Source: Collybiopsis luxurians FD-317 M1 (lineage: Eukaryota; Basidiomycota; Agaricomycetes; Agaricales; Omphalotaceae). Taken from it: 64,000 nucleotides of DNA. The stretch is from assembly GCA_000827265.1 (NCBI GenBank), contig KN834751.1, positions 254,113 to 318,112 on the forward strand. The letters are read 5' to 3'. Positions 3,462-37,609 of the stretch are shown in pieces (the first letter of the stretch is position 1; every line of letters starts with the position of its first letter). The notes under the pieces were generated by a model. That model saw only the letters and a program-made list of their open reading frames with translations. It was not told the DNA's origin and made no database searches. Made by a program: the position numbers and the translations under genes.

Positions 3462-6241
3462 ATGGCAATATTGAGGCACTTATTGAACCCAAACTGGAGA
3501 TGCCCATTCCCTCATTGTCCGGCGAGGTTTGTTTCTTACTCCCACTCGCGTCCTTAAACCAGGGGCAAGAGCTTGCTGAATTTTCCCTTTCCCGGCCAGG
3601 TTCACGAGGACTACGCACCTCAATAGGCACTTGCGCAATCGTACGTTCTTCCTTCAATACCTTGGATGTTTCTTATCCTAGAACCTAGACACGAACGAGA
3701 GGGTCCATAAGTGCGATGTATGGCTCTCCAATCCTTGGCACAAGCTCGAAACTCAATATTTAGTTTCTAACAGATGTGCGGCGCTCAATTTACCCGTTCG
3801 GACTTACTCTCGAGGCATAAGAAAGGCTGTAATAATCAGTGAGTCCTCCTTACTCGGAACCTCATAGTAGGTTGATGTACGAACCTTAGATCGTCTCCCC
3901 TCCGACGCAAATCCTGTGTTGCCTGTACGGAATCCAAAATCAAGTGCGATCGCGAGCTTCCTTGTTCCAAGTGTGCCAGTCGAAAGAAGGAATGTATTTA
4001 TGCCCCGACAACTAAGAAGGCTTCTCGCATTCAACGCTCACCTGGTGCCGCTGGTAACAGCAGCCATCCCAAAACAGCTAGTTTATCTTCGATCGGAAAT
4101 GACATTTCTTCTGCCCTTCGACCAGCCCCCATATCCTCGTCGGAATCGAGTCTTGCTGGTGCTATCGATGAACTTTCTGTCGGTTCCTCTCATGATTACT
4201 CCTCGATTGCTTCGACAGAAACCTCTTCTCAAGTACCAGTCGGCAGCCATCTGGCTTCCTTATACAACCACGATATGTTTGAACCGTTCTTTAGCGATGT
4301 TTTTTCTACCACAGACAAGCCGTTGGCGAACGCCAGTGAAACACCCCCCGACGAGACACAATATCACCAACCCGTAAGTCCCGAAGACGATGTATGGTCA
4401 TATTACAATCATGGAAGAAATCAAGCATATACACCTTATGGCAATCATGATAATCCTGCATTAATCCCACCAACTACTCCACTACAGCCCGCTGTCAGCA
4501 ATACGTATCCAGCACCTCTGGCTGTAACGGAAATTTCGCTAGAAGAGACAGAGCGACGGCATTATTGTAAATCATTTACGAGATCACTGCACTGAATTTA
4601 TTTTTAACCACTTATGAACAGTGCAACTCTTTTATAACGGTTACGTGGAGCAAGTGCCTGTAGTACATGCGCCTTCATTCAATCCCCAAAACAAGCCACA
4701 TTTCTTGATCAATACCATGCAAGCATGTGGGGCAATCTACGTCAAGACAAAGTCAGCTTCAGCATTCATGCTAAAGACCTTGAAAAACTTGAGACAAGCT
4801 CTATCAGAGGAACTGGTGATCGACAGTCCATGGTCTTGTATCAGACGGCAGCTCATTGATTTTCCAGTCCAAAGATCAACCGAGCGTTGAAGACCAACTA
4901 CATATCATAGTTACTGTAGTTCTGCTACACACTTTGGGCATGTTTCACGAGGATCCGGAAGAGCGTGCGACTTCTATTCTCTATCATGGTATGCAACTGT
5001 TGAAATCAAGTCTTGTCCTTTTTATAAATCTAAAGCTCTTGTTCCAAATAGGCATGTTAATTTCGGTTAGTGTTCATTCCTATTGACCTGTTTTTGTTGT
5101 TGAGGTTGTATGCAGATGATTAGGCGCGTCAATTTTATTTCACATACTTTTGGTTGGTCTTGGGATCACTACGCACATCTGCCACTGGAAGATCGGTGGC
5201 GCCATTGGGCTTTGCACGAGATGGCCAAACGGTAGGTCATCGATTCTTATGCTTCGATTGCAAGGTCTGTTGATCGTCTCCCTGCGTAAAGCGCTCTGCT
5301 CCTTTCATATCTACAGGATATCTCACAGTGTATTTACTTCACTGTCCCCTCTACATATCAGTCTGCAGAGTTGAGTTACTTCAATCTTCCTTGCGATAAC
5401 AGACTGTGGCACGCACAATCCGCGTCGGATTGGTGGGCAGAACTTCATCGAGAGTCTCCAAACGGGACTGCTCGAGAACGAATAACATGTCCATCTTTAA
5501 CATCAATATGGAACGTCGTGTATGAACTGCGAACTCCGAAAACCATACCCATAAGTCCTTTCGGGCACTGGGGTAAGTCGCTGTTCGTTTGATAATTGAC
5601 TTGCTCACCTATACTTCTATTTTTCGGGCGTAGCCGTCGTAAGTTCGCATCAACAAGGAATCTTTGTTCCATTTCTGAAAATTTTCGCTTTCCTAGATTC
5701 ATGGTATCATAGGTCGTCTATTCACACTATGCACCGAAAGTTCCATAACTATGCAGAATACCGACGGGATGGAGCAAGAGCTGTATTCGATTCAGTATGC
5801 CCTTCACAACTGGCTATCATTATGGATGAACCGTCCAGAAGTACTCGATGCTGAAGCACAAAAAGAAGCTGAGCCTCCCTTCATGCAGCATCGTATGTAG
5901 TATTTATTCATGGCATGTCTGTTCGCAAAATTGACAAATGAACAGCACTTCCTTTTTATTGGTTAGGCCAAGTCGCTCTAATGGCATACCAAGAACAGCT
6001 TCCCCCTTTCGAATCCGATGGTCAAGCGTACTCGCCCTCGAGTGCGAAGATGAATGTTAGGTTCTTCCAAGTGAAAAAATGGCTGCGTCTGATCCGTGGC
6101 TTCTTAACTTTCCATGGGAATAATACGCCCACCATTGTTTGGGACGAACTCATGGACATTCGACTGCGATCGTGGCAAGTCGACTTGGAACGACCTGCAA
6201 ACGATGACCCCAATGGGCTCCTAGGGTTTTTCGTGCAGTAG
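3462..6241 (+). CDS. C2H2 + Zn2Cys6 fungal-specific transcription factor
   Basis: A DNA-binding regulator combining two C2H2 fingers and a zinc cluster. Finger 1 reads CPFPHCPARFTRTTHLNRH once an intron inside it is removed. Finger 2 reads CDMCGAQFTRSDLLSRHKKGC, also interrupted by an intron. A CX2CX6CX5CX2CX6C cluster follows (CVACTESKIKCDRELPCSKC...C), then a Ser/Pro-rich linker, then a helical region with the look of the fungal_trans domain (for example LHTLGMFHEDPEERA and MIRRVNFISHTFGWSWDHY). The last exon (5947-6241) ends ...GLLGFFVQ. This double-finger layout is known in ascomycete regulators such as AmdX-type proteins. The start at 3462 gives a short leader directly before finger 1; an in-frame ATG at 3330 is the alternative. 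The target genes are unknown. Confidence 0.85.
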
Positions 6242-7619: not shown

Positions 7620-9650
7620 TTATCTGAACGGAGAACGAGGAATAGAGCATTCGGGGTTCGTTTTGGAACTCTCATCACGCCCAGGTGAAGGTACACTGAG
7701 AATTTCTTCTTCAACTTCGCCCATGGAATTGATTCTACGGATCGGGACAATCAGCGAAGGAGGACGAGGATGCCGCACCGTTTTGCGAATCTGAAGCGGT
7801 GCGACAGTATGCTCATAAGGAATAGAGACACCGCTGGAAGTCTCGCTCATCATAGCGGAAGCTCTGTGTAAAGTCGATCCTCTGTGTAAAGTCGATTCTC
7901 TGTGTAAGGTCGATTCTCTGTGTAAAGTCGATCCTCGTTCCAAGTCGGCAACGACATCTTGACCCTCCTGCTTATATCGCTCACTGAAACCATAGCCTAT
8001 AACAGTCGCGGAAGCCGCGTAATACGGGTCGGATTCTTCTGAGTTGATATCCGAAGCGATAGATTCGACAGGCTCAATAGGTTTGGGTTTGGAGATAGAC
8101 CTCTTCAGTAGAACCACCGATTCTGGGGGAAGGATTTGTCGACACGTGCAAAAGAGGGTGACATTCACGCAGCCTGACAGAAGAAATACCGTTTCACTGC
8201 AAATTCGTATGAGCGTCGACAAATCTGTAGAAACAAGCACCACAATACCAGAACACAGTGCCTTCAAAGGGAACCTTATGCCCGGTCCATGCAACGAAGC
8301 GCGAAATGGCAATAGGTAAGATAATAAGACTGTATGCTATCTGTTCACTAGCGTCAGCAAAATGAGTTCAAGCTCCCGATCTTTACGCACTGGATAGCTA
8401 CAGCATAGGTGCTCAGTCAGTATTAGCCAATTGGAATTCACAAGACATACAGAAGCATTTGTTTCGCAATCAACATTCCTTTATCATCGAAATGACGGCC
8501 TATTGGGCGTTCCTGTGCATGTTTGTGGAATGTTATTCGCCAACCCTTGAGAGTCATATTTCCACGTAGACGCAGATGAATGAGCCCGTGAAGAATGAAG
8601 CACAGGAACGCCGCCAGGAACATCTTCGGAAGGTATATTCAACATCTAGTATTTTAAAACGCAAATCAACCTTACAAACAAATAATCCAGCCTGAAAAGT
8701 TATGTTGAATAATGAGGAAACAAGGTCGAGGGCAAGATAAGACTCACGTTATACGAGGAGTCTCATAGCCGTCCGCTATCCAGCACCAGTACCCAGAAAT
8801 CCCAACTTGTCGTTCGAATCAGCCATTGCAAATTACTGTAAGGATTAGAGACTTACAAAATGGACCACGGGCGACTGTATCAAGTACGGCAGGACCTGAT
8901 ATAACGACGGCGAAAATACCAGACCAGCCTGCGATGAGCGTCGCAAATAGGGTAAACTTATTCGGTTTGACTTCTAGAACTAGAAGACAGAATGTATGCA
9001 CAGCGATGATCTTGGAATTTGGGTCATTATCCTGGCTGTATACAGGGATAATATGAATGGCTCACAAAGGTCCACAGTCCAGTCCCCACGTCTGCGATTT
9101 GCTTCAAAGTACCTGGAGCGACTAGGATCAGGCAAAAGAAGATGTCATCAAATAATGATTCAGACCCTGTGCAGTGCAGAAATTGTCCAACACTACTGCA
9201 CCGAGGCCGACCCATCGACCACTGTAAAGAGACCCGATCGCTTTCTCGATGTTCAGTGCGATGATCAGTTCCCCAATCCAGAAGCATACCTTGAATGAGA
9301 TCACAGAATAGAAGTGAAACAAAGTAGAAAGCGACATGTGTTCGGACAAAGAGATGCTCTTCGCTCTTGTATGACCGGGTACGAAAAGCGGATAACTGCG
9401 ACAAGTCAGACATCGTTAGAAATGAGAGGTAATTAACGACGTACCGAGATAATCGCCAGAAGTCCGATTACAGCCACCAAGGACAAAGTAGACACGACGA
9501 GAGTAAACTTTCAATTTTGGTTGGATTGAGAGGTGGTGAATGAATATCAATGCGACTCACAGTTACCCCAGATTGTTCCTTGGAAGAATAAGCCACCCGC
9601 GTGAGTAGTTGTTCACCGTTCGGAAGTTTGATTATAGTGTAATTGGACAT
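7620..9650 (-). CDS. Seven-helix receptor, Git3/cAMP-receptor-like
   Basis: Probable G-protein-coupled receptor of the plasma membrane. The start at 9650 gives a short extracellular N-terminus, then helix 1 (FTLVVSTLSLVAVIGLLAII). SAFRTRSYKSEEHLFVRTHV leads into helix 2 (AFYFVSLLFCDLIQ), and the loop AIGSLYSGRW follows with a NFCTAQG helix 3 start. Further helices are seen in VHTFCLLVLEVKPNKF, IAGWSGIFAVVISGPAVL, MFLAAFLCFILHGLI and GIVVLVST...NVTLFCTCRQILPPES. A GISGYWCWIADGYE-like extracellular loop is also present. The exon set is split by many introns. The cytoplasmic tail (from about 8130 down to 7620) is Ser/Thr-rich and carries four copies of an STLHR hexapeptide from an 18-bp minisatellite. 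Ligand and coupling are unknown; a G-alpha lies 20 kb away at 30001. Confidence 0.78.
7863..7934. repeat. Four tandem 18-bp units in receptor tail
   Basis: Four consecutive 18-bp copies (7863, 7881, 7899, 7917) differ by one or two bases. They are multiples of three and encode S-T-L-H-R-x repeats in the cytoplasmic tail of the receptor, so copy number can change without a frameshift. Confidence 0.95.
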
Positions 9651-30000: not shown

Positions 30001-32163
30001 ATGCCTCGTCGCAGCGTTGAGGACCATGACCCACTCACACTCGCTATTGCTCCACCCCCCAATGAAAACCCCGTAGACAAGGAGAAAAGGCTAACTCTAG
30101 AACGCAGAGCTAAAGAAGTATCCGATAAAATTGACGAAGAAATCAATGCTCAGCGTCTCGCAGAAAAGAAGGAAGTGCCAATCAAGGTGTTGCTTCTTGG
30201 TGTGTGTTTCCCTACTATCTTTCAGACCATTGCACTCAATTTCTAGTGTAGGTCAAAGCGAATCAGGTATCTTTCCATTTGCCCTCGAATAAGTATAACA
30301 AGCCTGACCGGACGGTGCAGGGAAATCTACAACGTTGAAAAGTGCGCAAACTGCAAAGCTAATGGAGCTTTCATTGACCAGTATCAACTAGATTTTCAAC
30401 TCATCAACTCCCCAAAAGCTTTCAAAGCTGAACGAGCCTCGTGGAGAGCAGTCATCCAGCTCAATGTCGCCCGTTCTATCCGCATAATCATCGATGCAAT
30501 CTCCACTGCCCAGCAAGCAACTTCCTCTCCAATTTCCCCTTCATCTCCCCATTCCCTGGATGAAACTCCCTCTGTTCCTTTACCTGACTTTGACGATTTG
30601 CCAACACTTACTCCAGAGCATCTTAAACTCAAAATGCGCCTCTCACCCATGTTGCAGGTTGAAGAGTCTCTATGGAGAAAACTTTCGCCGGGTTCCGCCG
30701 TTGAATTAGAGGCTACATCTATCACCAATGTTCCCCGACCTACACGTCCGAGGGAAGTCTACGTCAATTCAGCCATGGCCTGGAAGTCGGCATTTTCACG
30801 GCTGTTGTCGTCATCACGAAATAGCATGGACAGTGAACAAGGGATAGATTTTGATGATCCAAATGATCCTGGTGTTATTCTACACAATTGCGCCGAGGAT
30901 ATGATCAAGCTCTGGAATGATCCCACAATCCGAGCTCTTCTTAAAGCATTGCGCCTCCGCCTTGAGGATACCCCTGGATTGTAGGTCTTCACGTCACTTT
31001 CGGCATAATCAAGAATTCACGTCCCTGATAGCTTTTTGGATGAGCTTGAACGAGTCACTGCGCTCAAGTATATTCCTACCGACGGTAAATAGCATTTTTG
31101 CCGCTATCATCAAGCTGTAACTCTCTTCGTTTTCAGATGATGTTCTCAAAGCACGACTCAAGACGATAGGTAGCTAATCTTTTACTTTTCTGGAAACTTT
31201 AAATGTCTCAACGATATTCTTGCAAATAAGGTGTCACTGAACATCGCTTCGTTCTAAAAACAGGTGAGCTTATACCACGCTAGAATTTTGCATCGGTCCT
31301 AATCCCCTCTACTGAAGGAAACATGCTGAGTAGGGATTGGAGAGTATTCGATGTAGGTGGTGCTCGGTCATTGGTAAGATCCTTCCAGTAGTTGTGCATT
31401 CAATTGTTCCCTCACCATGTTTATCTTTCTAGCGAGGTACACGGATATTTCTTCTTTCGGATTCTATTCTGAGATGAACTCTTCCACTAGCCGCATGGGC
31501 ACCATTCTTTGACTCAGTCCATGCTATCATATTTCTGGCGCCTCTCTCCTGTTTCGATCAATCCTTGGTAGAGGATCCCACTGTCAACAGATTGGTGTGT
31601 GACTTGCCCTTTGTACTGTCCGCTGTTTCCGTTTTCTGATTTGGCTTATAGGAGGATTCCATTCTCCTTTGGAAAGCCATCGTCTCAAATCAACTGCTTC
31701 AGAATACCGAGCTGATTCTCTTTCTCAACAAATGCGACATCCTCAAGGCCAAGCTTGAATCTGGCATTCAGTTTAACAAGTGGGTTGTCTCGTATGGTGA
31801 CCGACCGAACACGTTTGACGGGGCGTCAAAGTGTAAGTCTTTCCTTTAATTTCGGCTGAAGTTGCCATCCTCATCGATAATGCCACAGATATGAAAAAGA
31901 AATTTGCCACTATACACAAGAACAACTCGACCACTGCTCGAACATTCTACTGCCACTTCACGTCGGTCACGGCAAGTCATATCACTTCCTTGCTGTCCTT
32001 TTTGCGCTGATGGTATCATTTCAGGATGTCAAGTCCACCTTCCAGATTCTTGGGAGCGGTATGCTTGGCAGTCCTCATTCAGATTCTTGCAATCTCTGAC
32101 TCGATTTTTCCAGTGCAAGATCTCATCGTCAGAAAAAGTCTATCGGATAGTCATATGCTCTGA
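30001..32163 (+). CDS. Non-canonical G-alpha subunit (Agaricomycete type)
   Basis: A heterotrimeric G-protein alpha subunit of the expanded basidiomycete class. The P-loop LLLGQSESGKST is built from three small exons. A long helical domain contains a Ser/Pro/Asp-rich insert (about 30520-30620). Switch I reads LKARLKTIGV, keeping the catalytic arginine and the Mg-binding threonine. Switch II reads FDVGGARSL, so the glutamine that positions the hydrolytic water is alanine (codon 31362-31364). The guanine-specificity motif is FLNKCD, and the last base-contact motif is FYCHFTSVTD rather than TCAT. The N-terminus is MPRRSV, without the Gly2 needed for myristoylation. About 11-12 exons. A TATATA box lies at 29944. 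Slow or absent intrinsic GTP hydrolysis is inferred. Confidence 0.88.
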
Positions 32164-32623
32164 ACCTTCACACGCGCTTAGCGCGGATTTTTGCTACGAC
32201 ATTCATTATTCATCTGCGATTTTTTTTTCTTGGATTATTGTTTAGCTTTTCGATTTGTACATATGTCAGCGTGTCGTTCATCCTCGTAAATTATCCTGTG
32301 TTTGTAGGAATATTTCGACTTTGTCGTCAGTGGTGGAATTATCTTTAGCACCTCTTTTTAATTGCAGTGCGGATCATGTCTATGCATAGGGTACAGTTTG
32401 TTTTAATCCAATAAACTGAGATTGCACAATCAAAATGATGTCCTGGATGATGAAGGCAGCATATCGAAGATCCCATGCGGTCGAGTTCTGCATTATAGTA
32501 CAAAGTATGAACCGAATAGATGTCCAGAGCCCCGGTATTTACAAAGTTGAAAGCATATAGACATGTGTTTACATAGCTATGTGAGATCCAGGCAAGTACG
32601 ATGAGCTTAAGCGCCAAAATAAT
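32164..32623. other. Intergenic region between convergent genes
   Basis: This 460-bp stretch is the 3' flank of both the G-alpha and the exonuclease-like gene. No polymerase-domain remnant could be read in it on the minus strand, where a full-length polymerase gene would have continued. Small minus frames (for example 32345-32617) resemble nothing known. Confidence 0.5.
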
Positions 32624-34360
32624 CTAACGTCTCAGATTTCTGACCATGGAGTTAAAGGTAGTTTTACTGAGCTGGCTTCGCCCAATCCATTTTTCCAGAG
32701 CCTCAAGACGGTCCATCAGCTGTAGGGGCAAATATGTATCCTGGAATTTAACTCAAGTAAGTACAAATAAGTACTAATCTTGGAATAAACATTCTTTCAC
32801 CTTTAAACAGTAAATCGCAAGCTTCTTCCGGTCCTCTGCAGTACCAGCTTGAAGAACTGGGATTTGCATGTAATGAATGTCCTCCTTTTTCTGATTTAAG
32901 AAACGGAAGGATGAGGCCTGGAGAGATAAACTTTTGTCTATGTTGGCCTGCATCAACTTGATCTTTTCTTCTGCGGATGGATAGTAATGTTCAAAGTAAA
33001 TGTAGTCGAGAAGATCGATTTGGAGACGACCAGGAATTGCAACTACAGCGGGATAGGCACTATTTCCACTATTTCGAAAAGTTGCCCTCGGCATCTCAAA
33101 CCCTGACATGACTCGCTCAAGTGCGGACAAGAAAGCAAAAGATTTAACGCGGACCTTTGATTCTCCCAATTTCACAAGGTATCTTGAGGCATCTTGCTCG
33201 TTCGACAATATATGGGATATCGAATCCACATGTATTATACCCAATAACAACGTCTGGGTCGGCTTCACGGATAAATTGGATCCACCTTTTAATCAAGTCG
33301 ACTTCACTGTCGTAAGATTCCACGTCTGCTCCCTTAATCGGATTGCATGATTTCAAGGTAAAGACATTCCTGTAAAATGTCTCAGCTTCCCCTGCGCAGT
33401 AGTTGTCTTAGCACTAATTTAGAAGTTCATTTATCGACGCATACATACCTCTGCGTTTTAACATGTTAGCAATTTGGACAATAGCTTGTTTGTCAGGCTT
33501 GGGAAACTGACCAATACCGGACGCGTCAATGAAAACGTCTGTTTCAATATCGAAGCTCATTATTCGAAGAGGAGCTTTACGCTCGATATCAAGAGGTTCT
33601 TCTCTCACTGAAGGGTGGAAGCTTTCATAGCTATGATAAAGATCAGTCAGTTCGAGATAAAGGCTGTAGAGTAGCGGTGAACTCGCTCAATGCATAGCTC
33701 ATATTGACAGGTAGACCGTTTGTCAATATCTTTGACAACGTTGAATGTTTTGGGCGGTATTGAAATCCATCGCATGCCATGTAAGTCCTCTTCAACATGC
33801 TTTCCATGGGGGAGATTCGTGATGCGGAGACAGATAATTGTTCCACTCTGTAATAAGAGGTGATCAGTTACCCTGAAGCTTTCGACAGGACTATTTGCCG
33901 CCCCTTAGCCATGCCAAAGACAAGCGTAGAAGTAGGCTCATTGTGGCATCGTTGGATATCTAATTGCTGGAAAACTATAGTTACGTATGCATAATGTCAA
34001 CTCTTTGTTATACATGAAAAGCACACCAATGGGCTGCTGAATGTTTATTGGGGCGTAGATGGGTCGTTTCCCTTTGCGTGCTGCTATAGCTGAGAGGGCG
34101 CTTGTTTTAACTGCTCCGTACAGAATATGCATGCTTTATTTCGACTGACCGTCAATAGCATCCATGTCCCGCAGCACATCTGCAAAGGATCCATGCGGTA
34201 CCAATTTTTGTTTTTTCGCCCCATCAGTACTGGACGTAGCTTGACTGTCCTCTTGGAGGTTTCTGCGTTAAACTTGAGATACCACACATAGTAATAAGTC
34301 TGGAAATCTTTTCGAAGTGACGCACTCGTAAGGTCTTTTGCCAGGCCGAGAATCTTGCAT
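32624..34360 (-). CDS. DNA polymerase delta-like, exonuclease-only protein
   Basis: A paralogue of the Pol3/POLD1 catalytic subunit that ends after the 3'-5' exonuclease domain. The start at 34360 gives MQDSRPGKRPYENLQEDSQA and SFADVLRDMDAID, like the Pol3 N-terminus. FGMAKG, GTIICLRITNLPHGKH, HGMRWISIPPKTFNVVKDID and CQYELCIE match the N-terminal domain. Exo I is RIMSFDIETDVF, Exo II GYNTCGFDIPY, Exo III YCLK|DTYLPLQLMDRL (split by an intron), so all catalytic acids are kept. After LMDRL the sequence becomes unique, with a 25-residue tail ending MVRNLRR and a stop at 32624; polymerase motifs A-C and the CysA/CysB metal sites are absent. All exons are open, arguing against a dead copy. Length is about 400 residues instead of about 1100. 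Confidence 0.78.
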
Positions 34361-34469: not shown

Positions 34470-35513
34470 ATGTCTTCTCCTTTCGATGATCTGAGCTGCT
34501 TGGACGATCTCATAACACCAGTATACCATAGAAACCATCGCCTAGTTCTGTTATCCAATGTTAGGAGAAATGAATGGGTGCTTCATCTCGGTATGAAAGG
34601 TTCAGAGGGACGTTGGTGGCGCGGAGGATGGCAAGAAGCTGATGTCTGGGCTTTTGCGGTTCGTGCAGAGTATTCTATTCGTTATATTGGTGTTTAGTTT
34701 GAAACATTGCTCTCAGGGCTCCGAGGCATCTTCAGAAAAGCTGCAAGATACCGCTGAGAAACTGCTGGAGAATATCAGAAAAGAAGAGATATTTGTAAGT
34801 GGATGGAGCCCAGAGTCTAACACTAAGCTCAAGGTCAGCTCGCCTACTTGAGGCATTTATGCTAGCTGAGAGGCGCTTAGTTGGTCTTGGGGGATCCTGA
34901 TGCAGACAAACGATGTGTGATACACTTAAACGAGATGTCACCACAAGATGCCGCGTCGTATGCCACCGAAGTGTTCTTGAACGTGAGGCTCAAGGCTTTC
35001 TGCCCATGAAATACCTTCTCGACGCGTCTCTTTCTCTTTTAGATCGCGATGGACGCCCAATCGCGTAAATGCCAACTTTTCGGAATATCCGGAATTCCTG
35101 CGGAAGGTTCATCGTTTCTTAATGGTATGTTCAATTTCACATTGCAGCGTTGCCCCTGATTCTCTTGCGTGATGATGACTACAACATCCAACAAATACTC
35201 CAGCAATCTCATCCTCGTCGCAAATCGCTTTGAATCAAGATAATGAAGCCTCCAGCAGTAGGAAACGCCATGAATCTCAGAAGGCTGCGGAACAGCCTGT
35301 CCCATCGAAGAAGAGGAAGGAGCGTAAGGAAGAATCTCCAAAAAGAGAAACCAGTAAGCAATATGGAAGATTGATGTATTTCTGCATTTAATCTTTGGAA
35401 TAGAACCCATGCCCAAAACAGTACAGAAACCACTGAAAGGCGCATCGTTGGCAAATCCAACCAAAAAGGCGCGAAAATATCAGGCGGTCCAGTTTGAGAG
35501 CGATGAGGACTGA
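34470..35513 (+). CDS. Candidate PAXX/XRCC4-superfamily end-joining factor
   Basis: Not an annotated family that I recognise with certainty; the architecture suggests PAXX. The N-terminus MSSPFDDLSCLDDLITPVYH is followed by strands HRLVLLSNV and EWVLHLGMKGSEGRWWRGGW, a helical pair (QEADVWAFA...SEKLQDTAEKLLENIRKEE), strands IFVSGWSPESNTKLKLVLGD and KRCVIHLNEM, then a helix SYATEVFLNIAMDAQSRK. This is the order of the XRCC4/XLF/PAXX head and short stalk. The C-terminal third is disordered with a nuclear signal (PSKKRKERKEES). It ends KKARKYQAVQFESDED, close to the Ku-binding end of PAXX, where a V-x-F plus acidic residues is essential. About 230 residues; human PAXX has 204. Four or five introns. 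Confidence 0.55.
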
Positions 35514-35903: not shown

Positions 35904-37609
35904 ATGTCCGTACCTCCCCCATTGTCGTCCATGCCTGCTGGCCAGCTGAGCGTTGAGACTATGTTTCAAAGCATCATGACGATGATGCAGCAATCAGCAA
36001 GTCTTTTTTTCGCTCACGAAAGTCGCTGTATTTCTCACTATTCGTGACAGCAAATCGATATTGCCGACCTGAAGCACGAATGTTCAGAGCTCAGACAGGC
36101 CAACGCCGGCTTGGAAAGACAGCTGCGAGAGTCTAACCAGGTAATAATTTATCGAAATATCATGAAAAAGCCTAGTTGCTCAATACATTACAGAGCAATG
36201 GGTACTTCCGTTCCAGTACACCTGGATTCATGACCCCTGCGGTTCCCTCAAGCCCTCAGATGCGCGCGAAATCGCCCTTCCTCAGTCCTTCCATCCCTAG
36301 TTCTTTGCCCTCTCTGTCTGCTCCTGTACACCACCCTTCTCCGTTAGGCGACAACGCGGTTTCGAACACGAGTTATTTTGGCACTACTCGTGATATTCCT
36401 GGCTTCTATGTTGTTATTCCTGCTGGAGGGGCGGGTACTCGTTTGTGGCCTCTCTCGCGCGAAGGTCATCCCAAATTTCTTCTCGACCTTACCCTGAAAG
36501 GCCGGTCTCTTATTCAAGCAACCTGGGATCGTCTTATTCCGTTGACCTCAGCAAGCCGCACGACTATCGTGGCAGGTCCTAGCCACGTTTCATCTATTCG
36601 CGACCAACTCCCCGACTTACTTCCCGAAAATATATTCTGTGAACCGACGGCCAAGGATTCAATGGCCGCAATTGGCCTTGCTGCGGCTATTTTAGCCCAC
36701 CGCGATCCTGATGCTGTTATTGGATCTTTCGCCGCAGACCACATGATTTCAGGCGATGAAGCCTTCCTCGCTGCTGTCGCCGAAGCCGTGGAAGTTGCAC
36801 GCAACGACTATCTGGTCACAATTGGCATCGCTCCTTCGCATCCCTCCACTGGTTTCGGTTATATTCGTCTCGGTGAACCCATCAACATCAAGAATGCCCC
36901 GAATGCACGGCTGGTTTCCAGTTTCAAGGAAAAGCCCGATGCGCGAACAGCGGCTGCATACATCGCCACTGGTAAATACCGCTGGAACGCCGGTATGTTC
37001 GTGACCAAGGCTTCAACTCTTCTCAATTACCTCGAAGAGTATAAACCTGAGATGAGTGAAGGTTTGAGGAAGATCGGCGCGGTTTGGGACGATGAGAAGG
37101 AAAGAAATGCGATTTTGGAGAAGATATGGCCAGAGTTGGAGAAGATTCCTATCGATAATGCTGTTGCTGAGCCTGCTTCGGAAGTAGGAAGAGTCGCTGT
37201 TGTGCCTGCAACGTTTGGTAAGCTTTTGGTCCCTTCGTATTCCTGACTTTGTCTTGACGACATTGACATAGGTTGGGACGACGTCGGCGACTTTTCTTCT
37301 CTCTCGGACCTCTTGCCTGCAGAAGCGAACCAACCCCGCATCTTGGGGGATGCCTCACTGGGTGAGTTCGATTCGGGTGTTACCTTTGTATCTTATGACG
37401 ACGCCTTCCCTTTTATAGTCCTTACAGATCAAGTGGCTGGAGGTATCGTAGTCCCTGGATCTGGTCGCCTGATTTCTTGCTTGGGTGTTGACGATCTGGT
37501 CATTGTCGACATGCCCGACTGTTTGCTCGTCACTACTCGTGCGCGGTCGCAGGAAGTCAAACGAATTGTTAAGAAAGCTAAGGATCATGGCTGGAAGAAG
37601 CTTCTTTAA
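35904..37609 (+). CDS. Bacterial-type mannose-1-phosphate guanylyltransferase
   Basis: Makes GDP-mannose from mannose-1-phosphate and GTP. The nucleotidyltransferase signature is VVIPAGGAGTRLWPLSREGH followed by PKFLLDLT. SLIQATWDRLIPLTSASRTT, LLPENIFCEPTAKDSMAAIG, VIGSFAADHMISGDEAFLAA, STGFGYIRLGEP, SSFKEKPDARTAAAYIATGK and WNAGMFVTKASTLLNYLEEY come next, and WDDVGDFSSLSDLLP closes the active site. This is the ManC form seen in bacteria, especially actinobacteria, without the left-handed beta-helix domain of the usual fungal Psa1 enzyme. A fungal leader of about 90 residues precedes it, with a coiled coil (QIDIADLKHECSELRQANAG) and a Ser/Pro-rich linker. Intron 1 (35997-36050) has a GC donor (GCAAGT). 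Three further introns are GT-AG. Confidence 0.9.

Follow-up and report, generated by a model that had tools for sequence, protein, structure and literature searches.

An exonuclease-only paralogue of DNA polymerase delta in Collybiopsis luxurians and other Agaricales

In a 64,000-nucleotide stretch of the 64-Mb genome of Collybiopsis luxurians FD-317 M1 (Agaricales, Omphalotaceae; C3:254113-318112), hereafter the window, we identified a minus-strand gene that retains the exonuclease motifs of POL3, the gene for DNA polymerase delta (Pol delta), but none of its polymerase motifs. Its sequence, predicted fold and intron positions place the gene by descent in the Pol delta lineage, where it very probably represents a conserved exonuclease-only paralogue. 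The presence of relatives with intact catalytic residues in other gilled mushrooms suggests a working stand-alone DNA editor. Taking the evidence as a whole, we put a probability of about 0.7 on a POL3-derived stand-alone exonuclease that was kept after the polymerase part had been lost.

The gene runs from position 34360 to 32624 of the window and was rebuilt from the sequence as nine exons that join in frame, encode 428 amino acids and end at a TAG stop codon:

Positions 34326-34360, minus strand: exon 1 with the start codon, MQDSRPGKRPYE; donor GTGCGT, and an N terminus that aligns without gaps to the Lentinula protein P0002.
Positions 34150-34262, minus strand: exon 2, with a basic stretch resembling a nuclear localization signal (NLS), KKQKL (34216-34202), and an SFADVL motif (34189-34172).
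Positions 34027-34083, minus strand: exon 3, as in the rebuilt model.
Positions 33892-33974, minus strand: exon 4, from VFQQLDI to FGMAK; its phase-1 start coincides with an intron position of canonical POL3.
Positions 33687-33847, minus strand: exon 5, the shortened N-terminal domain from CLRI to GMRWISIP; GC donor, with the same junction in the deposited model P0001.
Positions 33449-33630, minus strand: exon 6, with Exo I SFDIET (33557-33540), as in the rebuilt model.
Positions 33155-33391, minus strand: exon 7, with Exo II GYNTCGFD (33242-33219), as in the rebuilt model.
Positions 32801-33102, minus strand: exon 8, from GRLQIDLLD to IYCLK, the first part of Exo III; its phase-1 start coincides with a canonical POL3 intron position.
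Positions 32624-32740, minus strand: exon 9, with the Exo III aspartate, LPLQLMDRLEALEKW, the tail and the TAG stop (32626-32624), as in the rebuilt model.

The initial annotation had described a gene at 32624..34360 with the three Pol3 exonuclease motifs and their catalytic acids, exons that join in frame, an Exo III motif restored by intron removal and no polymerase motifs, and the rebuilt gene bears out all of this. The catalytic acids are present in Exo I, Exo II and Exo III (IYCLKD), matching the B-family DEDDy signature (Exo I D-x-E, Exo II D, Exo III Y-x3-D). Exo III is split by the last intron (motif at 32815-32738), which has GT..AG ends, and the conserved region of the window copy is free of frameshifts and stops. 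Three details of that description needed revision. The protein ends 37 residues past the Exo III aspartate, not about 12 residues after Exo III; its C-terminal tail has a related counterpart in the Lentinula protein and so is not unique; and the N-terminal domain is present but not whole, with 27 residues between the FGVTE and GMxW landmarks versus 112-124 in canonical POL3s (21 of 23 measurable). The deposited model GYMLUDRAFT_34959 (P0001, 335 amino acids) is identical to the rebuilt protein over 332 residues up to the C terminus; it starts later and lacks four residues beside its start. These are the final four residues of exon 4, whose 3' donor, GTCCTG in the rebuilt model, is uncertain. 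The searches, tree, dN/dS estimates and simulations reported below used a 411-residue gene model that differs from the 428-residue model only in the first residues.

Profile searches and comparison with full-length POL3 define what has been kept and what is gone. For PF03104, P0001 scores 146.1 bits, above the curated cut-off of 23. Scores fall below the cut-off of 24 for PF10108 (DNA_pol_B_exo2, predicted exonucleases related to the PolB exonuclease; P0001 16.3 bits, P0002 20.9 bits) and below that of 239.95 for TIGR00592 (DNA polymerase B superfamily, NCBIfam), for which P0001, P0002, P0003 and P0005 reach 26.7, 25.6, 28.7 and 21.2 bits, respectively, versus 317.8 bits for the full-length POL3 P0027. 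When this 1086-residue protein was compared with the whole window by tblastn, the gene was matched only up to POL3 residue 523, past which the sole match in the window was at chance level (E 0.27), near position 4700 and outside the gene. The window thus showed no polymerase remnant, which bears on the transcripts continuing into a polymerase domain that the initial annotation had named as a refuting case. The palm motifs SLYPS and YGDTD occur in none of the 14 exonuclease-only proteins described below, and PF00136 gave no match at E values up to 1 in the six of them that were scanned. The C-terminal metal-binding domain PF14260, listed for P0027, is unlisted for the 14 and absent from the six scanned.

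We searched the genome with the PF00136 and PF03104 profiles, with the gene's DNA and with protein. An intact POL3 carrying DFSSLYPSI, SANSVYGF and YGDTDSVM lies on contig C22; a search for one had been proposed as a check in the initial annotation. Its gene model matches the deposited P0027 at 99% over the full length of the query, which ended before the last exon (out of frame in the model) and contained one junction without a normal acceptor. This locus rules out an assembly error or a lone damaged POL3 as the source of the window gene. Additional putative B-family loci are present on C1, on C2 and at C3:421741-423848.

Homologues were collected with a single-protein query, which returned 12 proteins, and with a six-sequence profile, which returned 24 and scored only the 7996 candidates sharing most words. 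From the 24 we took 14 as exonuclease-only, P0001 included, and left out 10. Six were left out for a PF00136 domain (P0006, P0007, P0008, P0014, P0016 and P0018), as were P0024, whose model stops before Exo II, P0025, which is a second C. luxurians copy on contig C21, and P0026. Schizophyllum amplum P0004 (517 amino acids) was rejected as an exonuclease-only protein, being 99.8% identical over 499 residues to the full-length P0056. The 14 proteins come from 13 species of Agaricales: C. luxurians, Lentinula lateritia, Mycena venus, M. galopus, M. capillaripes, M. latifolia, M. olivaceomarginata, M. vitilis, M. floridula, Roridomyces roridus, Favolaschia claudopus (two proteins), Phlegmacium glaucopus and Hypsizygus marmoreus. 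The five species checked for taxonomy span the suborders Marasmiineae, Tricholomatineae and Agaricineae. For the M. olivaceomarginata protein only the first 440 residues were used; the remainder is dehydrogenase-like and probably reflects a gene-model fusion.

Within this set, all 14 rows have the Exo II aspartate and the Exo III tyrosine, and the Exo I aspartate and glutamate and the Exo III aspartate are each found in 13 of 13 covering rows; the deposited M. vitilis model lacks Exo I, and that of Roridomyces stops at the Exo III tyrosine. The Lentinula protein (P0002) has the length of the rebuilt model and is 54% identical to it over 429 columns, from the first methionine into the tail. A truncation conserved in other Agaricomycetes and homologues not riddled with stops had been put forward as checks on the initial annotation, and both are borne out: the homologues are deposited as open proteins with similarly placed ends, and only the C21 copy is broken. 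The reading as an exonuclease-only POL3 paralogue is thus supported, and we infer possible roles in repair, in editing in trans or as a modifier of Pol delta, all of which the annotation had also suggested. Among the best 120 of 4552 matches, a full-length POL3 is also listed for six of the 13 species (C. luxurians, M. floridula, M. latifolia, M. capillaripes, H. marmoreus and P. glaucopus); the other seven have no POL3 among the matches listed, which is no evidence of absence. The two F. claudopus proteins, P0017 and P0021, differ from each other and sit on separate branches of the tree, so the family may have expanded within Mycenaceae.

The exonuclease core of the gene is 43.75% identical to POL3 over 144 aligned columns. 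Three introns agree in position and phase with introns of the C22 POL3: one before FQQ, one after FGVTE/FGMAK, which is displaced by four codons in the rebuilt model, and one in the K-G codon pair before the GRLQ region. These common introns indicate that the duplicate arose from DNA, and they rule out a retro-copy. Maximum-likelihood analysis of the exonuclease core places the 14 exonuclease-only rows in one clade with support of 83/92, and after removal of five long rows the nine that were kept cluster at 88/89; the tree gives no resolution on where this clade falls among the canonical POL3s.

The strongest competitor to a single old paralogue family is convergence, with POL3 truncated independently in several mushroom lineages; we regard it as unlikely, at somewhat better than one chance in five. 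Approximately unbiased (AU) tests leave room for it, as they do not reject a join of the Omphalotaceae exonuclease-only proteins with Omphalotaceae POL3 (p 0.15, or 0.12 without the five long rows) or of six Mycenaceae exonuclease-only rows with three Mycena POL3s (p 0.077). Moreover, the exonuclease-only branches are long and may attract each other, as the tool itself warned, and M. floridula, Phlegmacium and Hypsizygus retain most of the N-terminal domain (spacing 95-118). Against convergence stand the single clade recovered with both row sets and a loss within one and the same stretch of the N-terminal domain, which 9 of the 12 measured members have in common (spacing 22-53 versus 112-124 in the 21 canonical POL3s). 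This common loss argues for one family independently of branch length. We favour a single duplication with later stepwise reduction, though the question is not settled.

Under the preferred reading of a retained POL3-derived exonuclease, an old DNA-level duplicate would have lost the palm, fingers and thumb, along with the C-terminal metal-binding parts and a portion of the N-terminal domain, and would then have been retained as a stand-alone enzyme. The protein would bind frayed or mispaired 3' ends and remove 3'-terminal nucleotides by a two-metal DEDD mechanism without DNA synthesis, after which Pol delta, Pol epsilon or a repair polymerase would resume. Its action would amount to trans proofreading, trans trimming of 3' ends or 3' trimming in repair. 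The fold, predicted with high confidence, resembles the N-terminal and exonuclease part of Pol delta, and Pol delta is its best structural match. The protein is probably an active 3'-5' exonuclease; for its predicted action on 3' ends in nuclear replication or repair, we consider the odds even. It is doubtful, though conceivable, that gilled mushrooms own a dedicated trans-proofreading factor, a stand-alone exonuclease derived from Pol delta that would correct 3' ends which other polymerases leave behind and tune the mutation rate, with some Mycena copies sent to mitochondria.

Short basic, NLS-like stretches lie within the first 110 residues of 11 of the 14 members, including the window protein and P0023, which suggests a nuclear location. 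The N termini of P0003, P0013 and P0023 (Mycena venus, M. galopus and M. floridula) resemble mitochondrial presequences, with five to six basic and zero to one acidic residues in the first 30, unlike the other exonuclease-only proteins that have an N terminus. Delivery of the exonuclease to a different compartment (mitochondria, for instance) in at least some species of Mycena would account for these basic, nearly acid-free starts; the NLS-like stretches, found even in P0023, speak against it, and we think it improbable. Slightly less probable still is a non-catalytic modifier whose N terminus and exonuclease surface would bind Pol delta partners, DNA ends or replication complexes and so act as a competitor. 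An SFADVL-like motif that may be a common docking site occurs in 13 of the 14 exonuclease-only rows (the 14th, P0011, lacks an N terminus) and in canonical POL3s such as P0014 and P0016. The catalytic acids and the Exo III tyrosine are nonetheless invariant where covered despite fast evolution, and a pure binder would have no need of them.

The 3' part of the gene lies in a segment that is duplicated elsewhere in the genome:

Window positions 30088-33713, matching C21:469401-473093, no strand assigned: duplicated segment (L019), 85% identical over 3452 aligned columns, with a separate piece of 186 columns at 87%.

Besides the 3' part of the exonuclease gene, the segment carries a G-alpha-like gene; this is a single exon with a partial PF00503 match (E 4.7e-8) below the curated cut-off. 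The C21 exonuclease copy is missing its 5' part and is interrupted by two in-frame stops, by deletions of 5, 1 and 49 bp that shift the frame, by a 163-bp insertion and by other indels. Between the window and C21 copies, dN/dS is 0.46 (bootstrap 0.28-0.77), with 0.58 for exons 5-7 and 0.35 for exons 8-9. A neutral, substitution-only simulation run to a 57% residue match gave a mean of 9.1 stops, and none of 1000 sequences was stop-free. A stop-free frame is thus improbable under neutrality, which together with the invariant acids speaks for function.

Several observations weigh against a retained, functional exonuclease. Exons 6-9 differ between the window and C21 copies by 8.5-11.4%, about as much as the introns (12.5%) and the downstream DNA (9.8%), and exon 5, at the segment edge, differs at 18.5% of 54 aligned bases; constraint since the C21 duplication has therefore been modest. 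At positions where the window and C21 proteins differ, we counted agreement with nine other proteins. The window:C21 counts are 20:7 for Lentinula, 19:5 for Hypsizygus, 16:11 for Favolaschia, 13:7 for Mycena galopus, 13:9 for Phlegmacium, 10:8 for M. venus and 12:12 for M. latifolia, and 8:8 and 9:9 for the canonical POL3s of C. luxurians and Lentinula. Six of the nine thus lean to the window and three are tied, with lopsided counts only for Lentinula and Hypsizygus. The family is patchy among the species listed and evolves fast, at a mean pairwise identity of 45% versus 83% among 23 chosen canonical POL3s, and a PCNA-binding box has no match in any of the 14 proteins. Of the 34 rows in the alignments behind the fold models, 21 are canonical or partial POL3s, which biases the models towards Pol delta. 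The splice sites include those of a GC-AG intron and several weak GT donors (GTCCTG, GTCCGC and GTGTGC), and another intron is only 44 nucleotides long, so the exact N-terminal junctions are provisional pending RNA. The gene, its splicing and its activity are predictions from sequence. That the gene is a decaying, functionless POL3 duplicate left open by luck, as the broken C21 copy and the weak splice donors might suggest, is nevertheless very unlikely given the near end-to-end identity with Lentinula, the simulations, the catalytic acids retained across 13 species where covered and the high-confidence fold.

Upstream of the exonuclease gene, a head-to-head gene on the plus strand has its ATG at 34470, 109 bases from the exonuclease start codon, and the two possibly have a common promoter. 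We do not claim this neighbour as an end-joining factor, as its Pfam PAXX match has an E value of 0.35 (10.9 bits versus a cut-off of 25) and its best PDB match an E value of only 0.69. Positions 36176-37609, plus strand, hold a nucleotidyl transferase gene (PF00483), which we take to resemble GDP-mannose pyrophosphorylase. The sole tandem array reported within the window is an 18-bp repeat of 4.2 copies at 7862-7936, and a scan of the window for Rfam families and tRNA found none.

It has long been asked whether a replication error can be removed only by the polymerase responsible for it or also by a separate exonuclease. A natural gene with only the Pol delta exonuclease makes editing in trans testable in mushrooms, and it marks an unusual evolutionary path for a replicative polymerase, in which the polymerase half was lost and the proofreading half kept. 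TREX1, TREX2 and bacterial DnaQ are autonomous 3'-5' exonucleases that remove 3' nucleotides by the DEDD two-metal reaction and could edit in trans. The reaction expected of the mushroom protein is the same, but this protein derives from POL3. Exonuclease-active N-terminal fragments of the phage T4 DNA polymerase, which our literature search did not find, would show a B-family exonuclease part working alone; these are laboratory fragments, not natural genes. In the portions of text returned by a full-text search with few subscription papers, there was no account of an exonuclease-only Pol delta paralogue, and the words fungi and truncated were not found in passages of a review of B-family evolution (PMC7544198). 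From yeast data, the authors of one study conclude that wild-type Pol delta is able to correct, in trans, mistakes made by other polymerase molecules once these have dissociated (PMC4351087), and by analogy a free Pol delta exonuclease could exploit the same opportunity. Other B-family modules have also lost one catalytic function, as described in passages of the review, namely the C-terminal half of Pol epsilon and the exonuclease of Pol alpha and Pol zeta (PMC7544198); in those the dead part stays inside a large protein, whereas the mushroom gene has physically lost the polymerase part and retained the exonuclease. The closest comparison is POL3/POLD1 itself, with which the gene has in common the N-terminal and exonuclease domains, the catalytic acids, the YCLKD form of Exo III, the intron positions and the best structural match. 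It differs in having no detected palm, fingers, thumb or C-terminal metal-binding domain, in an N-terminal domain about 90 residues shorter and in its faster evolution.
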